Source of the DNA: Siphonodentalium dalli
Taxonomy: Eukaryota > Mollusca > Scaphopoda > Gadilida > Siphonodentaliidae
Reading direction: 5' to 3'
NCBI GenBank assembly: GCA_032622095.1
Contig: CP136062.1
Coordinates: forward strand, 13,605,710-13,669,709
DNA length: 64,000 nucleotides
The translations under genes and the position numbers were made by a program. The notes beneath the pieces are model-generated. The model was not told the DNA's origin. It saw nothing but the letters and a program-made list of their open reading frames with translations, and made no database searches. Each line of letters starts with the position of its first letter. Positions within the stretch are counted from its first letter, which is position 1. This document shows, piece after piece, positions 7,059-49,581 of the stretch.

Positions 7059-7070
7059 CTACGGAAGAAA

Positions 7071-11384: not shown

Positions 11385-11430
11385 TTAGGCCTTTTCTTCT
11401 GGGAAGTATCTATAGTCTCATATTAAATAG

Positions 11431-12254: not shown

Positions 12255-12514
12255 CTTCTGTTCTCTCATCATTATTTCCATCCTCTTCATTTAAACTGTT
12301 TTCTGGCTCCTTGGAGTTTGAAACAGCAATCAGTGGTTCAATGGGGTGTGTTGATAACAGCTTTACTGCAGTAATTTCCAGGTCGTCGCCTTCATTGCTC
12401 ACAGAGTTGGAAACTGTAACGCTTTCTGAACCTGAATTTAAGCTGGGATGTACATTCTGAAAGTTTTCACTTAGCTGCCTCGTTCTCTCCAGATTTAAAT
12501 CAATAGTTTCAGAT
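12255..12514 (-). CDS. kinase gene exon 9 (acidic Ser/Asn-rich tail)
   Basis: A strong acceptor (TTCTTATTTCAG) lies at 12515 and the donor is GTATCT after CAGAAG. The exon begins with one nucleotide completing the Ile codon left by exon 8. It encodes residues 408-493, starting SETIDLNLERTRQLSENFQN and continuing with acidic, Ser/Asn/Glu-rich sequence (SNEGDDLEITAVKLLSTHP, LNEEDGNNDERTE). It ends with one nucleotide used by exon 10. It has no cysteine or obvious domain and reads as a flexible linker or regulatory tail. Both neighbouring junctions are in phase, and the other two frames are closed near the start, which fixes the frame. Confidence 0.82.
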
Positions 12515-12539
12515 CTGAAATAAGAACAAACAGACCTTT

Positions 12540-13110: not shown

Positions 13111-13114
13111 AGTT

Positions 13115-13655
13115 GAGAAGACATTGTTAGAAATGTACGTTAGAAATGTACTTTAGAAATGTATGTTAGAAATGTACGTTAGAAATGTACATTAGAAATG
13201 TACGTTAGAAATGTACTTCAGAAATGTAAGTTAGAAATGTATGTTAGAAATGTATGTTAGAAATGTATATTAGAAATGTATGTTAGAAATGTATGTTAGA
13301 AATATACGTTAGAAATACATGTTACAAATGTACATTATAAATGTACGTTAGAAATGTACATTAGAAATGTATGTTAGAACTGTATGTTAGAAATATATGT
13401 TACATATATACGTTAGAAATGCATGTTAGAAATGTACGTTATAGTAATGTACGTTAGAAATGTATGTTAGAATGTATGTTAGAAATGTATGTTAGAAATG
13501 TACGCTAGAAATGTAACATTAGAAATGTATATTAGAAATGCATGTTAGAAATGTACATTAGAAATGTACATTAGAAATGTATGTTAGAATTGTATATTAG
13601 AAATGTATGTTAGAAAAGTACGTTAGAAATGTACGTTAGAAATGTATGTTAGAAA
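13115..13655. repeat. 13-bp minisatellite, about 40 degenerate copies
   Basis: Head-to-tail TTAGAAATGTACG with frequent changes at the last three bases (ACG/ATG/ACA/ATA) and a few length variants. It lies in intron 8 of the kinase gene. Confidence 0.95.
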
Positions 13656-13669
13656 TGACCTGTGGTTTA

Positions 13670-14640: not shown

Positions 14641-14727
14641 GCAATATACTTTAAACATGCTGTTGAGACATATTTATGAGAGATAAGTCACTTATCTCTG
14701 GGTCAAAAATAACATTTTCAATAGATC

Positions 14728-15097
14728 TACCATGTAGTTCAGTGTGTAACGTATCTTTGACGGGAATATAACATTTTCAATAGAAAATACATATTCCCTA
14801 ATAAGATACTTACACACTGAACTCACATGTCCCTCCCAATATACATAATATATACATACATACATAACATAATATACATAATATATACATAATATATACA
14901 TAATATATACATATATACATAACGAGTGGACAAATGACCTTGACCTGCTACGTCATAATAATAATGATTCAAAAGGTACTTAAGCTATTTCGTACCAAAA
15001 TAATAAATTTTAAACGGATCTCATAGAATCCTTTCTTGTGAATAAAGATGAATATACCATGTAGTTCAGTGTGTAACGTATCTTTGACGGGAATATA
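14728..15097. repeat. identical 43-bp direct repeat plus an inverted copy
   Basis: The 43 bp at 14728-14770 are identical to 15055-15097 (core CATGTAGTTCAGTGTGTAAC). A diverged inverted copy at about 14785-14825 forms a roughly 100-bp hairpin with the first. The 15055-15097 copy forms the end of a 69-codon minus-strand open frame at 15057-15262. That frame cannot be joined in phase to exon 8 or exon 9. Confidence 0.8.
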
Positions 15098-15294
15098 GGG
15101 AGAAGTGGCACAATTTAGGGAGAAGATGTCTCCCAAGTCACCCAGGGTTCTAGCGGCACTGTTTTCTGGATGTGGATGTTGGAAACCACTCATTTGCTGA
15201 TTGGTAGAAAATAACTGCTGATAATTATCTGATTGACATATGAAATGGTCTGAGTGATGCAAGTGTCCTACAACGATTTCTCATATCTGTGTTT

Positions 15295-15447
15295 ATTACT
15301 CACATATTGATACTTGTTTCTATTGATACTGGTATAGGCCCAGTTATTACTCACATATTGACACTTGTTTCTGTTGATACTGGTATAGGCCCAGTTATTA
15401 CTCACGTATTTATATTGTTGATACTGGTATAGGCCCAGGAGGCCCAT
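15295..15447 (-). repeat. three 51-bp duplications of the exon 8 3' end with donor site
   Basis: Units start at 15295, 15346 and 15397. Each contains, on the minus strand, sequence like the last 20-odd bases of exon 8 (ACAAGTATCAATAT) followed by an intact GTGAGTAATA donor. The third is the most decayed. Two partial copies of the exon 8 5' part ('gagaaatc' after CACAG) also occur at 15266-15294 and 15470-15497. Together they form a local patchwork of exon 8 fragments inside intron 8. Confidence 0.85.
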
Positions 15448-15507
15448 TAACCATCATTCGATAAATGCGTCCTACCAAGATTTCTCATGACTGTGCCTAT
15501 TACTCAC

Positions 15508-15627
15508 ATATTGATACTTGCTTCTGTTGAAACTGGTATGAAGCTGGGAATCGTTTCAGGTCCATTAGGGTTCGGCCTATTATCTGATGCATGCGTCAAA
15601 CCAAGATTTCTCATGTCTGTGTTCAGT
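15508..15627 (-). CDS. kinase gene exon 8 (Pro/Asn-rich tail)
   Basis: A strong acceptor, TTTATTTGCAG, precedes 15627. The exon ends at AATAT before a consensus donor GTGAGT. One nucleotide completes the codon from exon 7, 39 codons follow, and two nucleotides are left for exon 9, so both junctions are in phase. Residues 368-406 begin LNTDMRNLGLTHASDNRPNP and end with IPSFIPVSTEASIN. No domain recognised. A nearer AG (in CACAGAC) would break the frame. Pieces of this exon and its donor are duplicated at 15266-15497. Confidence 0.72.
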
Positions 15628-15696
15628 CTGCAAATAAATTATCCTCCACAAATTATTGGTTAAAATTTGTCACATGACATAACTATTCCATCTAAG

Positions 15697-16076
15697 TTTA
15701 AAGACATATATTATGTACTTGTTCGGGTGCGTGAAACTGATCAGTTGGTGTTCATGCGCTACGCCAACTGGAGGAAATACCATTCTACTAACATCGCCAA
15801 AAATCTGAAGCAAATCGACCGTACCACTCCATCGAAAAATCGTCTGAACCACGCTCAATTGTAAATATTTACTACTCAAATCGGACGCTTCTATCAGTGA
15901 TAAACTAATGAAAACGATTTGGTCATCGGCAGTCACTGCATTTAATTAGTATATAAGAATGACGACGTGAGTTGTCAATTTAGATATATATTTCTAAAAT
16001 TAACTATACTTTGAACAAGATTATTCTCCATTTATATTTGATCACCCTACCGGAGTGTTTCACATCACTTTTCTAT
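15697..16076 (+). repeat. dispersed element, inverted partner of 6464-6838
   Basis: About 380 bp alignable by eye to the reverse complement of 6464-6838, including TTGTTCGGGTGCGTGAAAC and the end GGAGTGTTTCACATCACTTT. It carries a short ORF (15667-15864) of no recognisable family. Confidence 0.75.
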
Positions 16077-16374
16077 ACTGAATGGATTCTCCCATTCGGT
16101 TATAACAGAACACAGTGGAATAGTCCATTATTCATTTAGAGGGGTTTCAGGTAATAACAGCAGCCGACAGACAGAAAATCAGATAATACAAGAGCAGAAT
16201 TAATGATATCAATCGGTGGGAAATGTTTCCTAAGGTCTTTTGGGCATTATGGATAAACAGAAACAATTATTTGTATACGTTTTCGTTTCTAAGACCAACA
16301 TGATAATTACAATATTATTTAACAATTTGTAAAGTTACCAGAAGGAGAAGTCTTAGGACTTGTTCCGTTGAATA

Positions 16375-16376
16375 TC

Positions 16377-16431
<55 letters not shown>
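16375..16431. repeat. (ATG)n microsatellite, about 19 copies
   Basis: An uninterrupted trinucleotide run. Confidence 0.98.
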
Positions 16432-16433
<2 letters not shown>

Positions 16434-16794
16434 GCAAAATTGAAACGACTAGGGTATTTTGTAGTCGACTAGTCAACACCTACTATATATATAGAACAAT
16501 CAAAATCCCATACAGCTAGGATTATCAAAGTATTTTCTTTGACATCGAGGATCTGCCCATGTCACTGTGTTAGGTACGGGATTTTGAACCGCTATTTGTC
16601 ATCATAAATTTATTAAATCATGCATATTTATCATTATATTTATTGATGTTGACAGCCTATAGTGACAGATAAGTAGCATGAACATCACTCATATCATATA
16701 ATATTGGGGTAAACTTCAGCGTTGAAGTTATGTTATGTTCACGTATGATGGCGGCAAAGTAATGGTCATAAATCTATTATATATTTTGGAAGAT

Positions 16795-17385
16795 CTGTGT
16801 GTCTGTCTGTCTGTCTGTGTGTTCGCGATGAACTCGAAAACGACCCACCCGATTTCAATGAAACTTGGTATGTGAGGGTATTTTCGGCCGGGGACGAACA
16901 TAGGCATATTAATTTGTCCGTGCGACGTCACCTTGACCTTGAAATCGGGTCATTCCAAGGTCAAATGCCCAAATATCACGGGATTTCGATGAAACTTGGT
17001 ATGTGGGGGTACTTTCGTATGGGGAGTCTCATAAGCATATTCCTTTGCCCGTGCGACGTGACCTTGACCTTGAAATCGGGTCAATTCAAGGTCAAATCGC
17101 CAATTTTGATGGGATTTCGACGAAATTTTATACATAGGGTTACTTTTGTCCACTGGGTGTTTTGGACGGGTCAAATCGTGACCCCGACCTGACCTTGACC
17201 TTCAAAATGATCAATTCAAGGTCAAATCGCGTAAAACCGGATGGATTTCGACGGGTACTTTTGTCGGGTACTTTTGTTCGGGCAGTGTTTTTGACGGGTC
17301 AAATCGTGACCCCACTTGACCTTGGCCTTCAAAATAGACAATTCAAGGTCAAAGCCCGGACGAAGTCGGGTCACCTTCTAGTACT
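16795..17385. repeat. degenerate tandem repeat of about 132 bp, four to five units
   Basis: Starts in a (GTCT)n tract. Units are marked by 'gatttcratgaaacttgg' at about 16851 and 16984, and by weaker forms near 17115 and 17244. Each is followed by 'gaccttgaccttga' and 'ttcaaggtcaaa'. The ORFs through it are incidental. Confidence 0.75.
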
Positions 17386-17504
17386 ATATATAGAGAGACA
17401 CTTAAAAATAGCTGGATGCAACAAGCTTCTAAACTTCTGGTGCATGCGCAGTTAATTATTTCCTCTGATGTCATCACAACTGCGCATGTATATGGACTCT
17501 ATGT
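17386..17504. other. short spacer
   Basis: Contains 'atgcgcagttaatta' and 'actgcgcatgt' as an imperfect inverted pair (about 17443-17488). Nothing else recognised. Confidence 0.35.
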
Positions 17505-18050
17505 GTTAATTACAGGTGTGACATTTTACGTAACATTGAGTGAACTATTCCACTATACCCGTTTAACCGTTGGTCTATACTTTAGGGGTGTGTGGGTTAT
17601 ATGACAATGAGTCAATGACATGATTAGAAATCTGACTGATATATTGGCATATTCCAGCACAATATAAACCTAAATATACCAGCGCCCAGTTAGGAGTGAA
17701 GTGAACAAGTCGGAATCTGTTTAATCTTGTATCAGTCACCGCGTTGTCAAGACAACATATCTATTGCAACGTTGGATGTAGTCCATTTTTCACATGATAA
17801 TATCACAACTGTAACATTTTATGCAATGTTCAGCAAGCTATTCCACTCTACCATGTAACTGTTGGTTTATACTTTAGGGGTGTGTGGTTTGTATGACAAT
17901 GGGTCAATGACTTGATTAGAAATCTGACTGAGAACCCTAGGCTATCCAGCGCCCAGTCAGGAGTGAGTGTCAGTGAACATGTGGTCACGTTGAAATTGGT
18001 TTGATCTTGTATCAGCCACCACGTCGTTAAAACAATCATAACATCAGACA
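17505..18050. repeat. diverged direct duplication, period about 290 bp
   Basis: Blocks at about 17515-17755 ('ctttaggggtgtgtgg', 'gatttagaaatctgactga'-like, 'ccagcgcccagt', 'ttgtatcagtcacc') recur in the same order at about 17805-18040. A further 'ccagcgcccagtc' occurs at 7429. Confidence 0.7.
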
Positions 18051-18363
18051 AAGATTGTCATAGATCTAGGATGCCGCAATTTGAATATGTCAACATGTAA
18101 AGTAGCTCGCAGCTGATGCGACTTATAGCTGAACGGTGATTGTCCCAAAGAAACAACAAAGATGTCCCGCTATTCTAGGGCTTCACGGTTTTTCGGTATT
18201 GTCATACCGCGGTTTTATTTTTAATACTGTGTAGTCGGTATTGGATTTCTTGAATAGTCGGTATTCCGCTGCACACTATATTTTCTTCTTTTAGTCGGTT
18301 TTACGACAGCAAATTTCAATAAAATACATATTCTGAGGCACTAACGCGTGCCTGTAAGTAATG

Positions 18364-18500
18364 AACGAGAACTAGCGAGACGAAACGAGAACCAGCGAGA
18401 TGAAACGAGAACCAGCGAGATGAAACGAGAACCAGCGAGATGAAACGAGAACCAGCGAGATGAAACGAGAACCAGCGAGATGAAACGAGAACCAGCGAGA
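18364..18500. repeat. 20-bp minisatellite, about seven copies
   Basis: The unit GAAACGAGAACCAGCGAGAT has an exact 20-bp period with the ends slightly altered. Because 20 is not a multiple of three, the ORFs across it are incidental. Confidence 0.95.
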
Positions 18501-19480
18501 CAAGATGATAACCAGCCAGTTGCGTAACTGCAGCAAATTATCACGTTGTGCCAACACGTTGTACGCTGATGGATGTGTGTTTATAGTCGTCTCATATGCA
18601 GCTCAAATTAGTGTACACAAAGCAATAATTAGACCATGGTCGCCATCCATACAATTACGAAATGTAAACTATACTCTCCCCATTGTTTCCGTGCTAATGT
18701 TTATCCACCATCGAGACACCATGGATAAATACGTATTGCTTGGGGACCTTTTTAGTATAATCTCGACTTAAATCCCCTCATTGTATATGTGACCCGCCAT
18801 ATCAAATCCAGTCGGCCACCGTTGAGAATGGCCACCTGTCTTTACCGGCCGTATTGGCGATGTACGGACTGATTTTATTATATAAATGAACTGTCGTGAG
18901 CGGCCACCTGTCAAACGCGACCGACGAGTGGTATAAGTGGACAAAAATAGAAAAATATACCCTTAATGTGCGGCCACTTTATTGTCCAAAAGTAAATATT
19001 TCGATAGTTTTCAAAAGAAACCATTGTAAACAGGTAAAGTCGACTTCCGGTTATAGCAGAACATCTCATCAATATTCATGAGATGATTCGCTGTGCTCAG
19101 GCTTCATGGAAGCCCCTGTTGTGAGCCTTGTTATAAAGAAACCTATCGCTTGGTTAATTAAATGCATGTGTCATCGAATGTCTGGCGATAAACAATGAAT
19201 GAGGTGGCTATTCAATTAGAATGTATGAATGGAAGCCACTTGCCATGGGTTATGTTAAGAAAAGAAGGTTTATATAAACAAAGAACTGTTGTGTTTGGGT
19301 CGTTAGTGTGGATTACATATTCACACTTAATTTAGTATGCCTGATTGTTTTGAGCAAATACGCTTGTGCAATTGGCTTTCTCTCTGGAATATAAATAAGA
19401 GGGGGGGGGGATAAATATTTCAATCAGTATTTATACTTGATCTTGTGCTCTGTTCGTGGTGATATCGTAATTTAGTGAAA

Positions 19481-22086
19481 ATGTATAGTGTTGCAACTCC
19501 TTCCAAGAAACGTAAGATTCTTACTTTGGAAGAACGTATTAAAGTTTTAGATCGTTCTGAACATGGTGACAGTTCTAGAAAAATTGCTATAGACTTCGGT
19601 GTTGGTAAAACACAAATTCAGTCCATTGTGAAGGACAAGGATATGATCAAACACGAGTGGGAGAATGGTCATCAGGCGAATCGAAAGTATCTAAAGCCTA
19701 GGCGAACAACATACGGCGACCTCAACGAGCGAGTTTGGAAGTGGTTTTGTGTTGCGCGCAGCAAAAATGTCCCCATGTCCGGTCCACTGATACAGAATGC
19801 TGCCATCAAAGCATCCCTTGAGATGAATCATGATGATTTCACAGCTTCGAACAGCTGGTTGGAGAGTTTCCGGAATCATTATAACATTACATGGTCTGTT
19901 TTAAGTGGGGAAGGGGCGGCTGTTAACGAAACCACAGTCGACGAGTGGAAACAACGCCTTCCATCAATCACTGCTGGATATGACCCAAAAGATATTTTCA
20001 ATGCTGACGAGATGGGCCTATTCTACAGAGGACTACCAAATCGTTCGCTTGTTCACAAAGCTACCGATAGTAAGAAAGGTATTAAGCAAGCCAAAGAACG
20101 GTTGACAGTGCTTCTTGCTTGTAATTAGGGTCCTGCGAATATTCGATATTCAATTCGAGATTTGATTCGAAAGTCAAATTCGATTCGAATTCGAGTCGAA
20201 ATTGCCAACTCGAAATTTCGAATATACACTGATGGAAAAGTAGGCTGTTTACGGACAAGTACACACATCGATCTTAGCTGTTTTTGTGTCACTTAATTAC
20301 AGAAAATGATGTATATATGCACCTTATAATTCTTATTGTACATCGCGATTATATATATTAAATATAAGTATAACCAGCAATTAGCCACTATAGGACTACT
20401 AAATACGCCTGAATTCTAACTTTGAACATGATAGCCAAAAGCTCGGAGATCACCGATGGACCGACAACGCGCGTGAATAATAATAGCTATGAGACTGAGC
20501 AACCGCTATAGCGTTATCTGCCGTCTATCCGTCTCATATTCTGCATTATGTAGTATAGCTGAGAATTTAAACAACACGTGTTCCCGGCATCGGAGCGTTC
20601 TTTGACACTTGACAAAATGTCGTCGTTATCATGGTTATCTTAAACGTGAGATGAATGCAACCTGGTGTATAAATCGCAGGCATCTGGGACATTGACCCAT
20701 CTATGGAATCATCTGTCCAAGAAGCATCCAGCACTACATAATCAGGCTACCCTGCGACTGTTGTTGCATCTTCAAGTTTATAACAACGGGTGATTCCGAA
20801 TGTCGATTTGAAATTTTGCATGTACATGCAAACTGTACAAATTTCGCGTGATTTTAGTTCTGATAATCCGTTTAGTGGTTATATATTTATCGTCGTGACG
20901 GCCGCATAGACGTTTTTTTTAAATCTGCCTTTTTTTGTCGACAATTATCATTTGAAGTTAATAGTATTGCAAACGACGGTTCATCGCCACATAAGTTATG
21001 GTGGAACTTCGTGCATGTAGTTGATAGAACGTTTCACAAATCGTCTAATCGTTGACAAAACATGCCCAATTGAGAATGCAACACACAGATATGATTCGAT
21101 TCGATATTCGATTCGATTTCCAGAATTCGATTCGATATTCGATTCGATCAAAATCTCCAATTCGCAGGACTTGTAATTCAGTTGGAGAAAAACTGGACCC
21201 TGTAATCATAGGTAAATCGGCGAATCCGCGATGTTTCCGTGGTGTTCAAGTATCTTCTCTGGGAATTCAGTACCACGCAAACCAAAAGGCCTGGATGAAC
21301 GGAGACTTATTCTCGTCATGGTTGAAGAAGTTGAACAATAAAATGAAACGACAGAAACGGAATATTCTCATGTTCGTGGATAATTTTAGTGGCCATCCGA
21401 CTATTGAACTATCAAACATTAAGCTTGCATTTCTACCGGCAAACACAACATCCAAGCTCCAGCCATGTGACGCCGGTATTATTCAAGCCATGAAGCTGAA
21501 GTACAGAGGAGCAATGCTCAGTCACATCGTAACCAAAATTGACGAGATAGACACTGCCAGCGAAATTGTCAAATCCATTGACGTGTTAAAGGCAATCATG
21601 TGGGTGAAACAAGCATGGGGAAGTGTAAAAGAATCAACAATTCAAAAGTGTTATGAGAAATGTGGGTTCAATGTGAAGTGTGATGCCGAGAATGACGACG
21701 TATGCGAAACGGACGAAAAATTCAAAGAAGTTCTGAATGGAATGACCATGGTAGAATACGCCGACATTGACAAGGACTTGCCACAATGTGACGACTCGTG
21801 TGACCCAAATTGGGAAGATAACATTCTGTTGGGCAAAGGGGAAGCAGTAGATGCCCTAGATAGTGATGAAGAGTGTGTTGGAGATAGCTGTTCGTTGGAT
21901 ATAAACATCCCATTGCACGGCGAAGTTCTCGAAATGTTAGAAAAACTGATATCGTACAGTATTCACCATGGTTTGGGAGATGTACTGCAGTTTGCAGCAT
22001 CTACTCAATCGGCTATAGAGAGTAAGCAATTAGATAATAAGTTGGCAAGTCAGTCAAAACTTGAAAGATTCTTTAGTTCAAAGTGA
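19481..22086 (+). pseudogene. pogo/Tigger transposase gene split by a 1.04-kb insertion
   Basis: Two coding blocks, 19481-20126 and 21179-22086, are in the same frame once the intervening element and one 8-bp target copy are ignored; together they total 517 codons plus stop. Block 1 has a basic start, a CENP-B-like HTH (LTLEERIKVLD, SSRKIAIDFGVGKTQIQSIV), a second DNA-binding domain (VPMSGPLIQNAAIKA) and FNADEMGLFYR with the first catalytic Asp. Block 2 has VGEKLDPVIIGK, MFVDNFSGH with the second Asp, and LQPCDAGIIQ with the third, about 30 residues later. All three catalytic residues are present and length is normal for the family. The start is the ATG at 19481. The only lesion I see is the insertion. 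Confidence 0.9.
20127..21170. mobile_element. hAT-like non-autonomous element inside the transposase
   Basis: Flanked by perfect 8-bp duplications TTGTAATT (20119-20126 and 21171-21178). The ends are short inverted repeats, GTCCTGCGAAT at 20130 and ATTCGCAGGAC ending 21170. Both subterminal regions are rich in ATTCGATTCGA-like motifs, which could be transposase-binding sites. The 1044-bp body has no long ORF. The perfect target copies and intact host frame suggest a young insertion. Confidence 0.9.
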
Positions 22087-22340
22087 TTGTACTTCGAATG
22101 GCATCAACGAATTGAACATGCAAACACTTTGAACTAAACTGAAACTGACTTGTTGTTTCTTGTATAAATGTCTATTGAATTTGTTGTTATTATTGTTAAT
22201 AACACCGGAGGCTGTGGCAGTCTTCCCAAGGAATCTGCTAAAAATTAGACTCTGGCCCACACCTGGCGTCGCCGGCCAACTGTCATTAACAACCATTTTT
22301 CCTTAGCAAAATGGGTGGTCCCTCATAACAGGTTTTACTG

Positions 22341-22680
22341 AATATGCGAGTCGACCATAGGTCGCCTCGCATATATATAAGAGAATGCATTGGCCTAACA
22401 ATTTTTTACAATTTTAATAATTTTTTCTTGTATTCTTTAACAATTTTATAATTTCAGCCATACAGAGCCCCAGACAAACATGAGCAGACGACACTCTTCT
22501 ATATGCTTCTATATATGTGTGGGGCTCCCTGCAGGGTAATGGATGTTTTTTATTTCTCAGTGAGAACTTTCCGATGAATGGCAACAAGCCATATTTCCGA
22601 CAAAATCCTGAAAAGTTACCCATAATTCTGCTGTGGTTAAGGATTCGATTATTTAGGGCATTACTGTATTCAAATCGAAC
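22341..22680. repeat. composite of family A and family C fragments
   Basis: 22345-22395 is part of a family A hairpin ending GAGAATGCATTGGC. 22455-22540 is the inverted family A core (GAGCCCCAGACAAACATGAG ... GTGGGGCTCCCTGC). 22553-22676 is an inverted family C copy ending GGGCATTACTGTA. Confidence 0.75.
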
Positions 22681-22703
22681 TGTTGATACATGGGTAACAA
22701 TTA

Positions 22704-23310
22704 TAAATGTGAAGCAAAGATGTTTTATTTATCCATGTTCTTCTCGGTAAGAATGAAACAATATGTTTTATTTATCATGTTCTTCTCGGTAAGAACGAAA
22801 CAATATGTTTTATTTATCCATGTTCTTCTCGGTAAGAACGAAACAATATGTTTTATTTATCCATGTTCTTCTCGGTAAGAACGAAACAATATGTTTTATT
22901 TATCCATGTTCTTCTCGGTAAGAACGAAACAATATGTTTTATTTATCCATGTTCTTCTCGGTAAGAACGAAACAATATGTTTTATTTATCCATGTTCTTC
23001 TCGGTAAGAATGAAACAATATGTTTTATTTATCCAAGTTCTTCTCGGTAAGAACGAAACAATATGTTTTATTTATCCATGTTCTTCTCGGTAAGAACGAA
23101 ACAATATGTTTTATTTATCCATGTTCTTCTCGGTAAGAATGAAACAATATGTTTTATTTATCCATGTTCTTCTCGGTAAGAACGAAACAATATGTTTTAT
23201 TTATCCATGTTCTTCTCGGTAAGAACGAAACAATATGTTTTATTTATCATGTTCTTCTCGGTAAGAACGAAACAATATGTTTTATTTATCCATGTTCTTC
23301 TCGGTAATAA
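22704..23310. repeat. 43-bp minisatellite, about 14 copies
   Basis: Each unit contains TTCTTCTCGGTAAGAACGAA and ATATGTTTTATTTATCCATG, with two copies short by one base. Every unit carries a consensus plus-strand 5' splice site, CGGTAAGA. The kinase gene reads the other strand, so these do not serve it. Confidence 0.97.
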
Positions 23311-23315
23311 TGATT

Positions 23316-24000
23316 TAACCCTTTTTATACTAAATGGAATTTAAGTTATAATTAAAATTACAGTATACTTTCATGTACAATTATTTGTATTATTGATCTC
23401 TTTAGTTGAAATAAAATATTGTTTAAAGTGATACATACTGTACTCAAATGTTGTTGTTGGTTTCTATAGTCTGAGTCATGGAATAACGTAACCAGATTTC
23501 CATTATTTGAAAGTCTGTTGAGTACGAAGTAATGTTACAGATGGCAGATTAGCCGGAATGCGAAAATACCAATTGTCTTTGTCGAGTAATTTTTGGACAG
23601 TTTTCAAGCAAATGTATCAAATAAATGTTATATTATATGAATACTAGTCCCATATACTCATTTAAGTCATTGTATATCACCAGTCAGTGAGTGGCTTGAG
23701 TTTACACCTCGTATCAACATATTTTTTACATGATCATGTGTGCCACTCATTGGCCAATCCACTATCCGTGAATTATTTTCATTACGTCTTGTACACGGAA
23801 ATTTTAATTTAATTTATGGCTCCAGCCATAAATTTAATTTATATCAAATTAGTAACTTTGATTTTAAGATAACCTATTAACCTGAACGTTTACAGAATAC
23901 ATCTTCGACTCAAATTACTTACTTTTCTATATATTATCGATATTAGATCATCGATATTACCGGGAATTTATTGAAAATGGCGTACAGTACCCCTTTAAAC
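23316..24000. other. intron, nothing recognised
   Basis: AT-rich, with no repeat array or open frame of note. It ends next to the duplicated exon 7 junctions. Confidence 0.4.
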
Positions 24001-24198
24001 CAATTTAGTGATGGTTTCTCGTTATTTACATACGCAGTAGTGATGGTTTCTCGTTATTTACATACTCTGTAGTGATGGTTTCTTGTTATTTACATACTCT
24101 GTAGTGATGGTTTCTCGTTATTTACATACTCTGTAGTGATGGTTTCTTGTTATTTACATACTCTGTAGTGATGGTATCTCATTGAGTGGGCCCTAGTT
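24001..24198 (-). repeat. 32-bp array of duplicated exon 7 splice-donor junctions
   Basis: Six units start at 24007, 24039, 24071, 24103, 24135 and 24167. On the minus strand each reads AACGAGAAACCATCACTACA, then GA, then GTATGTAAAT. That closely matches the true exon 7 end (CAACGAGCAACCATCACCAC, TGA, GTATGTAAAT) at 24240-24207. The flanking 'tttaaaccaattta' also occurs on both sides (23995 and 24198). At least five intact donor-like sites therefore lie just downstream of the real one. Confidence 0.92.
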
Positions 24199-24215
24199 TA
24201 AACCAATTTACATAC

Positions 24216-24317
24216 TCAGTGGTGATGGTTGCTCGTTGAAGCGGCGGCTCAAGTCCTTCTGGGTATTGTTCGAATCTTCCACTCGTATCTGAAGTGATAT
24301 CCTCTCCAGTCAGAGAA
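24216..24317 (-). CDS. kinase gene exon 7 (post-kinase tail)
   Basis: An acceptor (ATTATTTTTAG) precedes 24317, and the exon ends ACTGA before GTATGT. It takes two nucleotides from exon 6, so the first split codon is Ser. It encodes residues 334-366 (SLTGEDITSDTSGRF, EQYPEGLEPPLQRATITT) and leaves two nucleotides for exon 8. The other two frames contain stops, so the frame is fixed. The sequence is hydrophilic with a Pro/Glu-rich part and no recognised domain. The last 23 bases and the donor are copied six times just downstream. Confidence 0.85.
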
Positions 24318-25947
24318 CTAAAAATAATTTGTATAGAAATAATATATCATGGCATTACATATCTTACATATAGAAATAATATATCATGATAAATGAGATA
24401 TTGGCTTTGCATGACCTAATCGACTTCTATAATGGTGTACCATCTCACTAATAATTTTTAAAAGATCAAATGACCACAATATCCCCCGATACGGTAGCTA
24501 ACTGAAGAATTGGCAATATTCGTAAAAATAAAAGTCTTCATCCGGAAACCTCAAATATTGAAAATTCGGCAAACTAAGGGCCATAACTGTGGTTGAAAAG
24601 TCGGACAAATCTGGTTTTTGAACTCAATCAAGATATTTTGAAAACCAGTTCCTATGCTAGACATAGGTCGATATTTAGTTATTGTGCAAAACGGCTGAAA
24701 ACCAAGAAATATCGGCAAATATGGCAAGAACTCTGCCAAAATAGGTCCAACCAAACTCAGAATCACAGGTTCCAATGATGCTAAGTTTTAACAAAATTGA
24801 CTATAAAAATCACAGACAGGTTCGGACAAAGATGCATCATCAGGATGTACAATTGTATGTCGAAAAATAGCAATAACTCCACAAAAATTACTCAAAAGCG
24901 CAGGTTGATATCTGAACCAAGATTTAACAAGAGCACGCAGTCGGGGCGTGGGATAATACGCCCGTTTCTGGAGTAGAGTGAGGTAAGGTTTAATTCCCAT
25001 ATTTGAACTTGATCTGTATACCAAATTTGGTTCAGTTCACTCGATTCAATCTAAAGTTATCATCCGGAAACCAAAATCGGACGGACGACAAACGGACAAC
25101 CCATTTACATAACACAACCGTTTTTTTCAAACAGGCGTATACAAAATTGACTGGAAAATGACGGAATACAGGCTTGGACAAAAGATGCTTCCCAGGATGT
25201 ACGATTCTATGTCGAAAAATGGCAATAATTCCACCAAAATGAGTCCGACCGAACATAATATTGCAGGTAGCAGGTTCCCATGCTGGTTTATATATGTGCT
25301 AAGTTTTAAAAACAATTATCAGAAAATGACAGAATACAGGCTGTGACAATGTTCCGGATGGATAGATGGACGAACAGATGTACGGACATTATTACATCGG
25401 ACATTTATGTATCTAATTTTAAGAAAAATGGATATTTATGTGGCTATTTTCCGTTAGGTGGCTAGCAACTTAACAGCATTCAGATGAACCATCAACAATG
25501 ATCTATTTGGCATAATCAGCCTATTTAATTTTGAATACTAAAAGTCCATAGATTTGGACATCCATGATCTGTCCACAGGAGATGTTCGGACAGGTTATGT
25601 GTCTAGTCACCCAATCAGTTTCTCCTATTCCACTGGCGTATTTGCTATATGCAAGTTTTTGAGTTTCAAAAACCTACTTTTGCTATAATTTGTCCATGTT
25701 CTGATTATATAATTTGAAATGTTATCACTATAAAACACTATATAGCCACCTAAAATTCGACCAATTACTTGATAGCCACATAAAATTTGTAGACACAGAA
25801 CTTATTTTAGCCAAATAATTCATAGCCACATATCCACGCAAATGTTGGTATGGTACAATACACGCAAGGATGAAGGTCAATACTATAGTCCTCGGATGGA
25901 ATGTTGAGGGACAATTAACACAGGTGCATTAAACTGTTCTGCCATAC
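24318..25947. other. intron with dispersed spacer repeats
   Basis: 24530-24790 and 24990-25370 contain related segments around 'catccggaaacc', 'ccataactg' and 'aaaattgactggaaaatgac' that recur within this intron and at 13.9-14.3 and 26.2-26.5 kb. No other exon fitted the phase between exons 6 and 7. Confidence 0.5.
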
Positions 25948-26012
25948 CTGGAAACTGGAAACCTCCCACGGAAATCTCTCATAATTTCCTCTTTATCTGC
26001 TCGATCTGAAAT
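25948..26012 (-). CDS. kinase gene exon 6 (short, just after the kinase domain)
   Basis: Uses the AG in ATCATTTAG just before 26012, giving 21 codons, ISDRADKEEIMRDFRGRFPV and Ser, plus two nucleotides; the donor is GTATGG after TTCCAG. A second AG 7 bp downstream (ATTTCAG) looks slightly better but would break the frame with exon 5. The upstream AG joins exon 5 (phase 0) and exon 7 (phase 2) perfectly. The charged sequence could form a short helix at the end of the kinase C-lobe. The exon is too short for an ORF scan and was found by phase matching. Confidence 0.75.
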
Positions 26013-26606
26013 CTAAATGATAATCACATTCACCTACAAATTATTGTTCCAAATCTGATAAAAAGTGACTGAGATATCTGCATGAATGGATAGAAAACCA
26101 TTTCATCTGATTAAATCAAAGAGGGATATAACATTTAGAATGAATAAAAGGTTGACGACAACGTGTCCCTGAAAAAGTGGCTCTTTAGTAAGGATATCTT
26201 TTTTATCATCGGACCGTGACCAAATTAAAACTTGGCCTTTGTCTTCTGAAATTTGAACCATGTACAAATTAGCAAGAGATTCAGTTGAATTTAAAAACAA
26301 TCAGATAACTAAAATTAAAGTTATCATCTGTAAACCTAAAAATGAAAACATTCTAAGTCGAAAAGGGGCCATAACTCTGGCAAAAATGTGCAAACCGAAC
26401 CAATATTCAAACTTGACCTGTGTTTTAGCTGATAAACTCACATAGCAAATTTGGTTTCGATCCGATAGTCCAAAATAAAGTTCTCATCCAAAAACTTTCC
26501 GAACAGATGCATGGCTAGATGGACTGATGGATGGACTCAAACGATGTCATTCTGCCCGTCTTTTACACTCTCACGATGGGAGCTGTTCATGTGCAGCATT
26601 AAAGAT

Positions 26607-26762
26607 CCTGTGCCAGTGCATTCTCTGATATATGCAAGGGAGTCTCGCATATATAAGAGAATGCACTGGCTTACAAGGTCAAGGTAAATATTGTTGGGCC
26701 AATGCATTCTCTTATATATGTGAGGCTCCCTAACATATATAAGAGAATGCATTGGTACAGGG
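26607..26762. repeat. degenerate family A double hairpin
   Basis: Two hairpins (GCATTCTCTGATATATGC... and GCCAATGCATTCTCTTATAT...) about 25 bp apart, between CCTGTGCCA and TGGTACAGGG. This is a shortened form of the elements at 27342, 51415 and 63266. Confidence 0.8.
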
Positions 26763-26887
26763 TTTTCGAAAAATTTCAGGAAGCTCCGGTCATGGAAGGT
26801 TAATTGCACTCTTATGACTAATCTCTGCACTAAATTTCATTTATATCCGATGTTTCTCAGGGAGACAGACAGAAAAATATTTGTTCC

Positions 26888-27002
26888 AGGTAAACAGTAA
26901 TGCCCTAAATAATCAACTCCTTAACCACAGAAGAATTATGGGTAATTGTTCAGGATTTAGTCGGAAATATGGCTTGATGCCATTCATCGGAAAGCTCACT
27001 GT
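26888..27002 (+). repeat. family C MITE copy
   Basis: Begins CAGTAATGCCCTAAATAATC and runs to GGAAAGCTCACTG. It is close to the copies at 38755 and 49870. Confidence 0.82.
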
Positions 27003-27317
27003 TTTTTGTTTTTTTACTTGATACACTCAGTCATTGGGTAATTTAATCAGCTAATACAACACTGCAAGGTACAAACATGGACGGAGACCGTGTCAACGAA
27101 CGCCACTTTTTGCAGATTGGCAGTAACACGTAGCCTCACATCATTAACCTCGTTACAAAACGCTACCAGATCACGGTAAGTGTCACCGCATATATACAGT
27201 GCACTACCGCGGGTCACCACAGTACTAGCATTCTTTATCACTGGTAATCCGGCGGTCCTGCGAATGTTGAGGTGGTAACGTGGTATCACACAGTAGCGCA
27301 ACCGTGATTTAGTGGTA

Positions 27318-27782
27318 TTAACCCTTTACCCAACAGAACGGCCCTGTGCCAATGCATTCTCTTATATATGCGAGTCGACCATAGGTCGCCTCGCATATAT
27401 AAGAGAATGCATTGGCTAAACACATATTAAAAATGATAAAATTGTCAAAGAATGTAGAAAAATATTATAAAAATTGTTTAAAAATGTAAGAAAAAATTAT
27501 AAAATTGTTAAAGAATGTAAGAAAAAATGGTAAAAAGTGTTAAAATAAGATTTTTTTTAGGCCAATGCATTCTCTTATATATGCGAGGCGACCTATGGTC
27601 GACTCGCATATATAAGAGAATGCATTGGCACAGGGCATAACTGTAACCTTCACAATGTGGTCAATGAACCGGTTCCAATGATATCCATATTTGTATGGTG
27701 TTATTGAGACAGACCGAAGATATTTTAAGCTGTTGAAGCTTTATTTGGGCATTTTTGGCCGTTTTGTTGGGTAAAGGGTTAA
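27318..27782. mobile_element. TTAA-flanked (piggyBac-like) MITE with a nested family A element
   Basis: The ends TTAACCCTTTACCCAACA (27318) and TGTTGGGTAAAGGGTTAA (ends 27782) form inverted repeats of about 26 bp. The four-base TTAA duplication fits piggyBac integration. The centre is occupied by a complete family A double-hairpin element (27342-27635). It sits in intron 5 of the kinase gene; intron 5 is the stretch between exons 5 and 6. Confidence 0.9.
27342..27635. mobile_element. family A double-hairpin element
   Basis: Outer inverted ends CCCTGTGCC and GGCACAGGG. Just inside each end is a 69-bp hairpin (GCCAATGCATTCTCTTATAT paired with its complement around 'tcgaccataggtcg'). The two hairpins are separated by an AT-rich core. 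Confidence 0.9.
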
Positions 27783-27864
27783 CACATGCATTAAAGCAGC
27801 TCGCTTATAAGAGCATACCTGTAGCTGATTTTAGAATCCATTAAGTAAATAAATAGATACATAC

Positions 27865-27959
27865 CTCTCCATAATTCTTAAAAAGATCTTCAACAGCATT
27901 ATTATAGCTCTCAATTGTCACATTGTCAGAGAAGTTTTCTGTTAGAATCATATGTATTT
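27865..27959 (-). CDS. kinase gene exon 5 (end of kinase C-lobe)
   Basis: The acceptor ATTTCAG lies above 27959 and the donor is a consensus GTATGT after GGAGAG. The first two bases complete the Glu codon begun in exon 4, and 31 codons follow, ending in phase 0. Residues 281-311 read IHMILTENFSDNVTIESYNN and then AVEDLFKNYGE. The start continues the final kinase helix: the RPIFTEI of exons 4-5 is the usual RP..EI/EL end of TKL kinase domains. It was found by splice logic. Confidence 0.85.
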
Positions 27960-28021
27960 CTGAAATAAAATGCAAATTTCAGAGATTCTGCAACCCACGA
28001 CAATGTCTTCCACATACCCCA

Positions 28022-28345
28022 AACCTCTACCCCCTATCAATCCAGAGCCCTCTACCCCCTATCAATCCAGAGCCCTCTACCCCCTATCAATCCAGAGCCC
28101 TCTACCCCCTATCAATCCAGAGCCCTCTACCCCCTATCAATCCAGAGCCCTCTACCCCCTATCAATCCAGAGCCCTCTACCCCCTATCAATCCAGAGCCC
28201 TCTACCCCCTATCAATCCAGAGCCCTCTACCCCCTATCAATCCAGAGCCCTCTACCCCCTATCAATCCAGAGCCCTCTACCCCCTATCAATCCAGAGCCC
28301 TCTACCCCATATCAATCCAGAGCCCTCTACCCCCTATCAATCCCG
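28022..28345. repeat. 25-bp minisatellite, about 13 near-identical copies
   Basis: Unit CCCTCTACCCCCTATCAATC plus CAGAG, with an exact period. Because the unit has no stop in two plus-strand frames, it yields 146-149-codon ORFs that are artefacts. The array lies 60 bp from the exon 5 acceptor, inside intron 4. Confidence 0.97.
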
Positions 28346-28624
28346 AGATTAATGCCTACATGAGCTGTGTATTATTATTTAATATTCATTATTGTTATGT
28401 TTACATTTATATATATTAGACATCAATTAGTTTCAATGTGCCTTACATAAAAAGGCTGAAATTTTCTAAGAAACAATAAAACAATTAGTCAACAACGAAG
28501 AAATTTTAAATAGGAGAAAGATATATCATATCAGTGTTACTGAAACCATACACAGCCGTGATAACAATAATTAAAATTCAAGTGATAGTCATTGCATTAA
28601 ATCATCTCCCACTAACTAAATAAA

Positions 28625-28998
28625 TGTGTTCACTATATGACATAGGATAATGCCTGGAAACCCTATAGGGAGCCCCACAAAGAGAGAAGATGTACTGCTG
28701 AGTGTCGTCTGCTACAGTTTAAGTGGGGGCTCCATATGGGGAATGATTATTATGTGTTCACTATATGACATAGGATAATGCCTGGAAACCCTATAGGGAG
28801 CCCCACAAAGAGAGAAGATGTACTGCTGAGTGTCGTCTGCTACAGTTTAAGTGGGGGCTCCATATGGGGAATGATTATTATGTGTTCACTATATGACATA
28901 GGATAATGCCTGGAAACCCTATAGGGAGCCCCACAAAGAGAGAAGCTGTACTGCTGAGTGTCGTCTGCTACAGTTTAAGTGGGGGCTCCATATGGGGA
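28625..28998. repeat. 128-bp tandem repeat, nearly three copies
   Basis: Starts at 28625, 28753 and 28881, almost identical. Each unit holds GGGAGCCCCACAAAGAGAG, then AGTGTCGTCTGCTAC, then GGGGGCTCCATATGGG, an inverted pair with a conserved centre. The same arrangement occurs in the core of family A elements. Confidence 0.93.
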
Positions 28999-28999
28999 T

Positions 29000-29326
29000 C
29001 GCAAACCCTTTCTTAATGATACGATATTGGATTTCCAAATGACAAAAGAAAATAGTAATACAAAATAAAACAAGTGATTGCACCAGCGGTGCTGGCAAAC
29101 CCCATGGTGACAAATTAAAACCTTTTCAAATAAACAAAGATAAAAAATTGTTGAATGGAAAACATGAATAAAACGATTGAACACTCAATTGATTGCCGTC
29201 ATAATACTGAACATTTCAAACCAAATTTCATTGATATCCGTCAACTGGTGGTGGAGACAAGGACAAAAAACCAACACTTCCTAATCTACAAAGAGGAATA
29301 AATCTCAAGTGGGAAAACTGGAAGAA
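29000..29326. other. intron, dispersed repeat fragments
   Basis: Contains 'ccaaatttcattgatatccgtcaa' and 'acaaagat..ataa' phrases that recur at 29450-29560 and 31500-31650. No exon recognised. Confidence 0.4.
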
Positions 29327-29444
29327 AAAAACGATTGAACACTCAATAAAACGATTGAACACTCAATAAAACGATTGAACACTCAATAAAACGATTGAAC
29401 ACTCAATAAAACGATTGAACACTCAATAAAACGATTGAACACTC
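29327..29444. repeat. 20-bp minisatellite, six copies
   Basis: The exact unit AAAACGATTGAACACTCAAT. The motif appears singly at 29170, 29570 and 31564, so the array grew from a dispersed spacer repeat. Confidence 0.95.
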
Positions 29445-30127
29445 CGTTGAATATCCAAATTTCTTTGAGATTCGTCAAACGGTGGTGGAGATATCTGCAC
29501 GGACGGACAAAAAACCAACATTTCCAGATAAACAAAGATGCATAACTCTAAGACAGAAAACCAGGAAGAAACGATTGAACACATTCAAGAAGGAAGTGTT
29601 GTTCCAGGATAAACTTATAAATCAGACGATAAATAAAAGATTGACGGAGAGCACCGGCTAGCAATATATTTCTTTTATAATTTATTAACGTTTTTGGTTA
29701 CAGTATACTCATATGATATTACAAATTTTCATGAGTTTTATACGTGAATGCAAATGCAAAAATAAATTTGTTTGCTTAAAGGCCCACTTAATTTTCAAAT
29801 CACCGATTATTTTTTTTATATTGCCTTGACGGTTTTGATAACAATCTATGCCATAAAATATGATTAAAGTACTATAATTCATCACCATTTGGAACATCTG
29901 TGTCTCAGAAGGTGCCCATAGAGTAATAGAAAATAGATGAAATAAAAAAATAATTTCCCCCGTTATGGCTCCCAGAATGCAACAGAATTCAAACTATAGT
30001 TTATTTTCCATTGAAAATTATAGACTTTGTGCAGAAACCTGGGCACAGAACAGACATTGATATCTCAACAAAAACAACATGTTCACAGTTTATTACATTG
30101 AATAAGTTGATAATACAATGTTTTCAT

Positions 30128-30188
30128 GAAAAGTTACCCATAATTATCCTGTGGTTAAGAAGTCGATTAATTAGGGCATTACTGTACA
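30128..30188 (-). repeat. family C MITE fragment
   Basis: Inverted partial copy: AAAGTTACCCATAATTATCC ... AGGGCATTACTGTA. Confidence 0.75.
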
Positions 30189-30369
30189 TGTCAATGGTTA
30201 TTCGGTATAATAAAAATAATGATGACCTAGTACGATGTGGATGTTGCAGATTGTCTCCCTTGGAACCATTATCTCCTTGGCTTTGCCTCAGGAGACAATG
30301 TGTTTCTTGGGGAGAGAATCCACATGGTCCACCTCGAAAAAGGTCAACATTTTCATAATAGTACAATAC

Positions 30370-30516
30370 CTGTGAAAATGGGTCTCTCTTTTGGTTCCTG
30401 CGCCCAGCAGCGGTCTATCAAACTGAGCACACCTTGTGAATACTGTTGGGTTATGTCCCTTAGAGCAGGCCGCTGTCCAGTTTTAACCATTTCAATAAGA
30501 ACTGCCAATAAAACAC
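30370..30516 (-). CDS. kinase gene exon 4 (kinase subdomains IX-XI)
   Basis: The acceptor is TTACATTCTGACAG and the donor GTATTG follows TTCACAG. The exon is 147 nt and completes the Gly codon of exon 3. It encodes VLLAVLIEMVKTGQRP, an LRDIT linker and LIDRCWAQEPKERPIFT. The CW..EP..RP motif is the subdomain XI signature of protein kinases, where the Arg salt-bridges to the APE-type glutamate. Residues 232-279, ending with one nucleotide for exon 5. The reading frame is the only open one that matches both neighbours. Confidence 0.93.
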
Positions 30517-30624
30517 CTGTCAGAATGTAAATAAAAGTGTTGATGTCATTGAAGCTCAACTTGGAGAGGGGCTAATGTCGAATGGCACAGTTAATGAAGC
30601 GATAAGGAATGCGGAAAGTTGGTA

Positions 30625-31944: not shown

Positions 31945-32158
31945 CTTTGTATGGTCGCTTCTCAGAGCAGAGTTCCCACATACAGATGGAAAATGCATAA
32001 ATATCTCGAGATTGACGCCGTTTTGTGTTGACGTCTTGGAATAACTCGGGTGGAAGGTACTGAGTCGTCCCTCTAAGAGACTTGTCCTCTTTATTAACAT
32101 CCTCCAATGTAAGCGTTGTTGATTTGTCTTTAAGCTCACATAAACCAAAATCTGTGAC
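31945..32158 (-). CDS. kinase gene exon 3 (activation segment, subdomains VII-IX)
   Basis: The acceptor AGATTATTTCAG lies above 32158, and the donor GTATTA follows TACAAAG. It starts in phase 0 after the exon 2 Lys. Residues 160-230 contain DFG (162-164) in VTDFGLCELK and an activation loop with Thr/Ser and several Lys/Glu. LRGTTQYLPPELF places PPE at 195-197 in the APE position, and SRDIYAFSICMWELCSEKRP is subdomain IX with the conserved Asp. The Asp of DFG binds magnesium. TKL kinases commonly have this GT..Y.PPE form. The exon ends with one nucleotide completed by exon 4. Confidence 0.95.
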
Positions 32159-32162
32159 CTGA

Positions 32163-32500
32163 AATAATCTGTCTATACTAAAGCATCATTGATGAGTAGT
32201 TATCCCATAGGAAATGTTCAGACAATAAGTTTAACCCTTTCTATACTAAAGCATCATTGATGAGTAGTTATCCCATAGGAAATGTTAAGATAATTAAGTT
32301 TAACCCTTTCTATACTAAAGCATCATTGATGAGTAGTTATCCCATAAATGTTCAGATAATAAGTTTAACCCTTTCTATACTAAAGCATCATTGATAAGTA
32401 GTTGTCCAATAGGAAATGTTCAGATAATAAGTTGAACACTTTCTATACTAAAGCATCATTGATGAGCAGTTATCCCATAGCAAATGTTCAGATAATAAGT
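32163..32500. repeat. roughly 70-bp tandem repeat, five units, broken by later insertions
   Basis: Units contain TCTATACTAAAGCATCATTG, GAGTAGTTATCCCATAG and ATAATAAGTTTAACCC. The array ends at TTTAA (32500-32504), where a TTAA element begins. It resumes for 13 bp at 34571-34583, is broken again, and ends with one more unit at 37846-37880. Confidence 0.92.
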
Positions 32501-34570
32501 TTAAAGGATTTATTCGGTCTATAAACTACAAAACGCAATCGGAAAGCCCTCCCTGTTGTGATTAAAATGATCCAAGTCCCATTCATATCGCATAATAAAT
32601 AACCCGTAAAATAAATAAATAATACCACCACCGGTATTGGGAGATTTCCGTGACTAAACTACGAGTGCATGACGTAGTTGTTGGAGAGCAAATTAAAAAC
32701 ACAGATTCGGAGCCGGAGTTTATTATGCTGACTATGATGACGTAATCATAAGTCAGCCAATACTAAAATGCGGAGTGGTATGTGCGCGTGTTGTGTATAG
32801 ATTACATTGCCATTCAATGTGTTATCCAATTAAAGGAGATAGTGTGGCCGCTTTGGCCGTTTATCTGGAATAGAAAACAATAATTATGTGAATAAAGTAT
32901 TAGTAGCGCCTAGAATGGTTGTTTTTGTAGCCATTAATAACATGCCGCCACGTGTCTGCTTTGTTGAATAGAAGGCAGTAGTGCTTCGATTGTCTCGTAT
33001 TCACTCGGTGATTTGTAATCTCTCAGTGACTATTCATCAGTGTCAGTCGCGAACTAGTTTGCACTGTAAAATGCCCCAAAGTGAATATAGAGGGCGACAG
33101 ATGATCACATTCACCTGGTCATACATAAGAAGCGCCCAAATGTTATATAAACACTGTGCTGAATAATGTTAACTCTATTTAGGTGCTTTTGAATTTTGTT
33201 TTGTGTTTTTTTTTTTTTACTTTCAATATAAATATCCCGAATATCTGTCATCTCCACATATACCAAGTAGATGAAGTGTCTTCGGTTGTGGAAGGGCTAG
33301 CGATCCATTATTAAGTACCTCCAAAAAGACAACACAGTGCGTAATTTATAACGCTCTTTATTGTCTACCGCTTTTGGGAGACGGAAGCATGGACGCTCTT
33401 TATATTTAAATGTCACAACACCATACAAAATCACCCATGACATATCGAAATAGAGCACGTTCATAATTGAGAACGCTCTTTATTGTCTATACTGCGACGA
33501 AAACATGGACGCTCTTTATTAGGGGCAATCATTGGATTTTTTCTAGGCTAACAATTAAAAAAAATCCTCTATAGAAAGTCAATATCTGCATCAAAACGTA
33601 AAATAAAACGAAAAAAATAAACGAACAACAAACACAAACTGAAAAACCACGCCAGGCGAGCCTTCAATTAAAAAAAATATTGTTATGCCAAACTGCAGCC
33701 TAATTAATAATTATTGTAGTTTCGACAGTCTGTTGTGTATTCGAGTGAATTAATTTGTTTACGCACTTATCGATCTTGACTGGAAGGATTTTATCAAGCT
33801 GTTCACAGTCGCGCACTTCTCCACACACTATATTTCATGTGAAGAAACAGACAGGAACATTATTATGATGAATATACTTAGCTATCATGATACATGTACT
33901 AGTATAATAACCACCACCTTTTTAATAACACCCCATTTGTGTTTAATTGTACTCATATAGCGCACAACGGGATGACACTAGTGTGTGAACTAGCTTCCGA
34001 AATTGGTACCATACAATGAAGAAGAAGCTATATGGCCTAACTTGTATTATTTCAGAAACAGTTAAATTAATTTCGCACGAAATTTCGCTCGCTCATTGCA
34101 TTTCTGCATAAATTAATCTCATTTCACACAACTTTTATCGCCTCAAAGTGCATTTTAGCCATCATTATTCGTTATATAATCCAACATTCTAGCAAATCCA
34201 GTTCATAATTCAGCACATTCAAACAGTTTTATTCCGTGATCGCTATTTATTGTAAAGGCCTAGATAATTAACCGCTGACTGCAATATTTTACACGTAATT
34301 TATCAACTCGTTACGCGAATAGCAGAATTATTTTAAGCTCCACCCACCGGTAAGCGTCGATGCAGATGATCGGTCATGTGACTGCGTTGTGGTCATGTGA
34401 TCGCACTCACATGATTTACACTTCGGAAATTTCCGCGATTTTTTTAATATCATAATAAAAATACTATCTGCTCGATATTGAATTTTCTTGGCGAAATGGG
34501 TCTGTTAGACATATATTATTAGAATTATGACGATAAAAAAAAAAATTTTTTGACAGACTAATTCCTTTAA
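32501..34570. mobile_element. 2.07-kb TTAA-flanked (piggyBac-like) element
   Basis: TTAA occurs at both ends (32501-32504, 34567-34570). The ends are weak inverted repeats: AGGATTTATTCGGTCT inside the left end, and the complement of AGACTAATTCCT inside the right. Removing it with one TTAA restores the 70-bp unit (AAGTTTAACACTTTC). The body has no transposase ORF. It includes a roughly 130-bp direct repeat with 'acgctctttattgtcta' at 33350-33515. Confidence 0.75.
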
Positions 34571-41243: not shown

Positions 41244-41544
41244 CTTTGCCCGGAGTTTGTCATTGATAAGTATATTATCGCCTTTGAGATCACAGTGAAT
41301 AACTGGTATCAACTGTCCATGCAAAAACTCCATGGCACTGGCAACATCCATCATAAATTGGTATTTAATATCAACGGCCGCTCCAGGGAAGTCATCGATG
41401 AAATCTGGGACACTCCTGAACTCCATGTGCTCCAAGACGAGGCTATAATCCCCGATATCCAGGATGACACCATAAAAAATGACGATAGATTCGTGCTGAT
41501 AATCCAGCATCTTAATTGCTTCAGACTTCAGCAGCTTTATCCCC
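41244..41544 (-). CDS. kinase gene exon 2 (alpha-C helix to catalytic loop)
   Basis: The acceptor TCTTTACTTTAG precedes 41544, and the donor GTAAAAG follows GCAAAG. One nucleotide completes Arg59 from exon 1, and 100 codons follow. Features in order: LLKSEAIKML, with Glu67 of the alpha-C helix; HESIVIFYGV, the beta-4 region; YSLVLEHMEF, the hinge; DVASAMEFLHG, the alpha-E helix; and HCDLKGDNIL at 142-151, the catalytic loop with Asp144, Lys146 and Asn149. HCD in place of HRD marks a non-RD kinase, common among RIPK and IRAK families and other immune-signalling TKLs. All residues for phosphotransfer are present, so the enzyme is predicted active. Introns on both sides are large and full of transposons and satellite. 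Confidence 0.96.
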
Positions 41545-49405: not shown

Positions 49406-49581
49406 CTCTCCGGCATTTCCCCGAACACATTGAGCTTCTTGACCGCAACTGTTCCATGTTGGTTGTGAACTGATTTTCTAACTTCGCTGTATCCACCACG
49501 GCCGAGAAGAGCTCCATGACTAGAAAAAGTTTCCTCCCTGTACACTATCAAATCTCTTGGTTGGCTGTTAGAAAGTGCCAT
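49406..49581 (-). CDS. kinase gene exon 1 (start, glycine loop, catalytic Lys); non-RD TKL kinase, RIPK/IRAK-like
   Basis: ATG at 49581 in good context (ACAATGG), with an in-frame TAG 15 bp upstream. The donor is GTAAAT after GAGAG. Residues 1-58 have no signal peptide or membrane segment, so the protein is probably cytosolic. LGRGGYSEV (26-34) is the ATP-binding glycine loop, and VAVKK (45-49) carries catalytic Lys48. The kinase domain thus begins almost at the N-terminus, as in RIPK-family proteins, and runs through exons 2-5. The family assignment rests on TKL-like motifs and the non-RD HCD loop. Raf- or MLK-like TKL kinases are less likely because no upstream domain exists. The role, by family, would be Ser/Thr phosphorylation in stress or immune signalling; the substrate is unknown. 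Confidence 0.9.

Follow-up and report, generated by a model that had tools for sequence, protein, structure and literature searches.

A 32-bp minisatellite next to a predicted exon in a RIPK1-like kinase gene carries copies of the exon's edge and splice donor

A predicted kinase gene and the array next to its seventh exon

The window, i.e. the whole stretch of DNA that was analysed (64,000 bases), contains on its minus strand a predicted gene for a RIPK1-like kinase (Table 1). Exons 1-7 form one open, phase-consistent chain of 366 codons; the limits of exons 1-5 were set from homology, and those of exons 6-8 from phase and splice-site scores. Residues 22-281 of the chain match RIPK1 (best E = 1.9e-38), which accounts for the top 13 of 60 listed PDB sequences (2052 matched in all), and the Pfam kinase domain PF07714 was detected at residues 25-284 (2.7e-41). 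The host gene is thus predicted to encode a RIPK1-like kinase domain, RIPK1 being the closest among the PDB matches listed. In RIPK1, a death domain lies C-terminal of the kinase. The three minus-strand frames, scanned with Pfam over 101-10000, 10101-20000 and 20001-29900, showed no death domain, and this domain could be split between exons or lie beyond the window; downstream, these scans recognised no domain except a transposase.

Exon 6 starts in the phase in which exon 5 leaves, and itself leaves the phase needed by the single open frame of exon 7. By our own estimate, which was not computed, 24317-24216 is quite probably exon 7. The gene, strand, exon number and donor position named in the original prediction all fit the seven-exon chain with its RIPK1-like domain, exon 7 itself being predicted. 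Further downstream, candidate exon 8 is the sole open AG..GT stretch of 200-400 nt in which both sites score at least 4.5 (one on the minus strand, none on the plus strand), these limits having been set post hoc, after its scores of 4.7 and 4.7 were seen; by total score it comes fourth of 202, and some candidates in the plus-strand control of this stretch reach higher totals. A candidate ninth kinase exon (10902-11005; donor 8.2, acceptor -2.8) is in phase from candidate exon 8.

Table 1. Predicted exons, the junction and its copies (positions in the window)
Feature	Positions	Strand	Remarks
Predicted exon 1, coding part	49406..49581	minus	Chain and kinase match
Predicted exon 2	41244..41544	minus	Chain and kinase match
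Predicted exon 3	31945..32158	minus	Chain and kinase match
Predicted exon 4	30370..30516	minus	Chain and kinase match
Predicted exon 5, kinase domain end and tail start	27865..27959	minus	Chain and kinase match
Predicted exon 6	25948..26012	minus	Phase; donor score 9.3, acceptor -3.8
Predicted exon 7 of 102 nt, between an acceptor that precedes 24317 and a donor that follows 24216	24216..24317	minus	One open frame, in exon 6 phase
Original junction, with the 22 terminal bases of exon 7 and then GTATGTAAAT	24206..24237	minus	Reference copy
In-frame TGA inside unit 1, ahead of every decoy junction	24179..24181	minus	
Unit 1, decoy donor at +54 nt (last exon base 24162)	24152..24183	minus	27/32 identical; donor score 3.13
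Unit 2, decoy donor at +86 nt (last exon base 24130)	24120..24151	minus	28/32 identical; donor score 3.13
Unit 3, decoy donor at +118 nt (last exon base 24098)	24088..24119	minus	29/32 identical; donor score 3.13
Unit 4, decoy donor at +150 nt (last exon base 24066)	24056..24087	minus	28/32 identical; donor score 3.13
Unit 5, decoy donor at +182 nt (last exon base 24034)	24024..24055	minus	29/32 identical; donor score 1.43
Unit 6, partial, without donor, running into AAATTGGTTTAAAGGGG (echo of post-donor sequence)	24006..24023	minus	
Candidate exon 8 (may instead be terminal)	12255..12514	minus	Open solely in the frame required by donor 24216

Beyond the donor of exon 7, TRF reports an array with a period of 32 bp at 24006-24180 (5.5 copies, 95% matches). 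Placed in register and read on the minus strand, the unit consists of AACGAGAAACCATCACTACAGA and then GTATGTAAAT. One further copy in this register lies on the transcriptionally upstream side, at 24237-24206, as AACGAGCAACCATCACCACTGA followed by GTATGTAAAT, the boundary between the two being the proposed exon end. This exon-edge 32-mer (22 exon and 10 intron bases, minus strand) was the reference against which the units were compared, with the totals listed in Table 1. In units 1-5, the exon part is identical to the exon 7 edge at 17, 18, 19, 18 and 19 of 22 bases, and the donor part is kept at 10/10 bases. Thus, of the six 32-bp units with an intact donor that had been proposed, five are complete and carry it in GTATGTAAAT, while the sixth (24023-24006) is partial and lacks the donor; likewise, the units do copy the last 22 or so exon bases, but not exactly. 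The first decoy junction lies 54 nt past the true junction, and the others follow in steps of 32, 32, 32 and 32 nt. A degenerate 24-mer of the junction, allowing at most three mismatches, was found at six places in the 64-kb window, i.e. the exon copy and the five units, and in 100 shuffles at a mean of 0.00 places.

An exact 27-mer of the unit gave no matches in either viral_contigs or genome_contigs, which weighs little as neither is a collection of animal genomes. The exon 5-7 peptide, also searched outside animal-genome collections, gave pattern matches in 16 viral stretches, none of which was confirmed by tblastn. Judged by title, none of the papers listed in literature searches concerned this locus.

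Reading frame and strength of the copied donors

Decoys 1-5 would extend predicted exon 7 by the distances given with the units in Table 1. The original prediction was that the 32-bp step shifts the frame and that use of a distal donor would thereby alter or truncate the tail. By contrast, decoys 1 and 4 stay in frame, and the frame makes no difference because the in-frame TGA at 24181-24179 precedes all five decoy junctions, at distances of 17, 49, 81, 113 and 145 nt. The expected truncation thus survives, by way of this common stop and not through a frame shift, and each decoy isoform would end ...TITTEYVNWFKLGPTQ. The stop reflects a single C/T difference, AATGAG in unit 1 versus AACGAG in the exon copy. 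Use of any decoy would therefore give one common truncated C-terminus, or decay. Under the 50-55-nt rule for decay, the own junctions of decoys 3-5 would trigger decay; an intron after exon 8, if present, would make all five decoy isoforms decay targets.

On a donor matrix, the true site scores 1.67, compared with 3.13 for each of decoys 1-4 and 1.43 for decoy 5, and the gain of decoys 1-4 over the true donor comes from an A that replaces T at position -3. In support of the row of equivalent sites proposed to follow 24216, four of the five decoys outscore the true donor, and the splicing machinery may thus meet several similar cut sites. An overlapping GTAAAT, 4 nt beyond each junction, scores 1.43 in all six places; if exon 7 were cut at its own GTAAAT, the resulting phase would not suit candidate exon 8. 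In duplexes with U1, for which the values represent the best pairing and not necessarily the splicing register, the true site reaches -5.3 kcal/mol and is the weakest of the seven exon donors (others -5.7 to -8.9), while decoys 1-4 reach -6.6 kcal/mol and decoy 5 reaches -3.5. Structured RNA in the array was ruled out as the transcribed array region is less stably folded than 100/100 shuffles (z +2.45).

Other arrays in the window and the origin of the copies

The window contains 37 arrays, obtained by our own merging of 62 TRF rows, which cover 11,698 of its 64,000 bases. Arrays with at least four donor-like sites scoring at least 3.1 number 8/37 on the minus strand and 8/37 on the plus strand. 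Because such arrays are common, a row of donor-like sites alone is not evidence of function. By contrast, the exon 7 edge matches its own array at up to 29/32 positions (random 95th percentile 17/32), while the three other exon edges near arrays match at 14, 15 and 11 of 32 and have no edge copy; the random 95th percentiles for the four edges, from 400 stretches each, were 17, 17, 19 and 19. In total, the special feature of the locus is the copied exon edge, and not the donor-like rows.

The three arrays without an exon-edge copy lie 19 nt from the exon 1 donor (49172-49387), 14 nt from the exon 3 acceptor (32172-32504) and 65 nt from the exon 5 acceptor (28024-28347). With distance thresholds that were all chosen post hoc, 3/13 exon edges lie at most 40 nt from an array (0.42 expected, P 0.008), 4/13, exon 7 included, at most 70 nt (0.74 expected, P 0.007) and 5/13 at most 150 nt (P 0.05); if candidate exon 8 is added, the respective counts are 3, 4 and 5 of 15 (P 0.017, 0.014 and 0.083). 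As these thresholds were picked after the data had been seen, purposeful placement of arrays at exon edges was not adopted and is kept as a lead only.

Among the remaining repeats, a 43-bp array at 22720-23307 (13.7 copies) has AATAAA in at least seven minus-strand units (23286-23029), and its consensus contains the donor-like motif GGTAAGAAC on the plus strand. A 5-kb array with a 22-bp or 47-bp unit (CATTATTATTATACCAGGCCAC) occupies 42091-47076 in intron 1 of the predicted kinase gene. The window also contains a match to the Tc5 transposase DNA-binding domain (5148-5324, minus strand; Pfam, E 2.5e-07) and two plus-strand open frames, 19463-20125 and 21049-22083, each a putative transposase by eye.

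The flanks of the array bear on its origin. Next to the true donor stands AAATTGGTTTAAACTAGGGCCC, and the partial unit at the end continues into AAATTGGTTTAAAGGGG; the 13-nt echo AAATTGGTTTAAA is present at both places, past the true donor and past the last unit. The echo shows that the duplicated block spanned exon and intron, past the donor, and the array is flanked upstream and downstream by copies of the same intron piece. The simplest history, based on a single sequence, is probably a duplication of about 54 nt followed by expansion of a 32-nt core. Specifically, a segment from the last part of exon 7 into the first part of intron 7 in the RIPK1-like kinase gene would have been duplicated in tandem, first as the block of about 54 nt, and the core would then have been amplified to a minisatellite within the intron. 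The donor core is intact in every complete unit because the duplicated block included the donor. Our best reading is a local tandem duplication that expanded to a minisatellite and included a splice donor by chance.

Interpretation and known systems

We give an even chance to the explanation as a whole, namely that the junction was duplicated, the true donor is productive and some use of the decoys leads into a dead end. The donor at 24216 would give the productive message, as it is in frame with candidate exon 8 while all copies are preceded by the stop. Some pre-mRNAs would use the better-scoring copies 1-4, and the resulting messages would share the premature stop after YVNWFKLGPTQ and be truncated or decayed. 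Most likely, the array would be a by-product that leaks some splicing to this dead end, and repeat number may tune the amount. Decoy 5, which is weaker than the true donor by both matrix and U1 duplex, counts against this explanation.

It is possible, if somewhat unlikely, that exon 7 and its donor at 24216 are real and the copies inert, the array being a passive intronic minisatellite. The donor-rich arrays of the window (8/37 on each strand) fit this alternative, since their abundance suggests that donor-like sites are tolerated, and the splice site nearest the exon may be favoured; however, decoys 1-4 exceed the true donor by both matrix and U1 duplex, and the exons that they would create (156-252 nt) are of normal size.

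It seems unlikely that exon 7 is not an exon and that the array is just an intronic minisatellite of the ordinary type, the outermost and diverged copy of which resembles an exon end by chance. The sites of exon 7 are weak (acceptor -3.76, donor 1.67): 883 open AG..GT stretches of 60-250 nt on the minus strand and 1090 on the plus strand have sites that equal or better them, its donor is equalled or outscored by 950/3809 minus-strand GTs, and by combined score exon 7 ranks 58/369 within 20000-30600, or 42nd with the cut moved on by 4 nt to the overlapping GTAAAT. Against this, the sole open frame of exon 7 suits the phase of exon 6, candidate exon 8 suits the phase that exon 7 leaves, and the GC content of exon 7 (0.49) is in the top 4.9% of sampled 102-nt stretches. 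Codon usage was dropped as proof of exon 7: although its 0.186 bits per codon is equalled or exceeded by only 269/9335 open 33-codon windows on the minus strand and 245/14558 on the plus strand, this value proves little because kinase exons that were left out are hardly detected by the codon model (-0.165 to +0.054). Finally, it is very improbable that exon 7 is the last exon, with the frame running to the TGA at 24181-24179 and the array in a 3' untranslated region ending near the AATAAA at 23972: this AATAAA lies 207 nt past the stop and the downstream minus-strand Pfam scans recognised nothing beyond the transposase, but AATAAA occurs at 1.3 per kb on the minus strand, so that one at this place is expected often enough, and candidate exon 8 is in phase.

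Beyond the preferred explanation of a leaky by-product, we consider it quite doubtful that the number of donor copies acts as a heritable dial on a cell-death-type kinase, with the row of U1 sites perhaps shielding a long intron. As decoys 1-4 are better U1 sites and lead to a stop-containing dead end, more copies would mean more truncated or decayed product and less tail-bearing kinase; moreover, the U1 row may shield the intron from the AATAAA at 23972 and from the 43-bp array further on, which also carries AATAAA.

Should the copies be used, nature would have provided a set of almost identical 5' splice sites that compete with one another at constant intervals of 32 nt, in which the effects of distance and of small sequence differences on donor choice, and of minisatellite length on gene output, could be tested. 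If they are unused, strong look-alike donors would be ignored next to a weak true donor.

Intron gain by local tandem duplication likewise multiplies splice signals, with several copies in fission yeast, as described in PMC4974935; cases of this kind are ATP2A1, 24-bp AGGT repeats in fission yeast and potato RdRp. In those cases a new intron arises from the copied signals, whereas here the donor is multiplied within an existing predicted intron. Moreover, the AGGT needed by the Rogers model, which supplies the GT and AG of the new intron, is absent from the 32-nt units, in which AG and GT do not adjoin. Intron gain by tandem duplication is related in cause and not in outcome. The array resembles ordinary intronic minisatellites in its 32-nt unit and 95% matches between units, but differs in that the unit includes a predicted exon edge and donor, which the three other arrays at exon edges lack.

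The minisatellite of the human gene 6-16 (IFI6, G1P3) reportedly provides multiple splice donor sites, as stated in the title of Turri, Cuin and Porter (1995). That title stands in the reference lists of PMC4526556, PMC2572611 and PMC2915984, and according to a passage of PMC4526556, two downstream repeat units of the IFI6 minisatellite act as splice donor sites, which gives rise to three mRNA species. As expected of the IFI6 kind, a tandem repeat adjoins an exon (here predicted), and the donor core is present here in 5/5 complete units and absent from the partial sixth. By contrast, donor use at IFI6 is reported in transcripts while use of the donors described here is putative, and gene, unit and host are unrelated. 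Whether or not the copies are used, the principle is already cited for IFI6. In total, we conclude that the locus is unusual but likely of the IFI6 kind, for which a minisatellite with multiple donors has already been cited.
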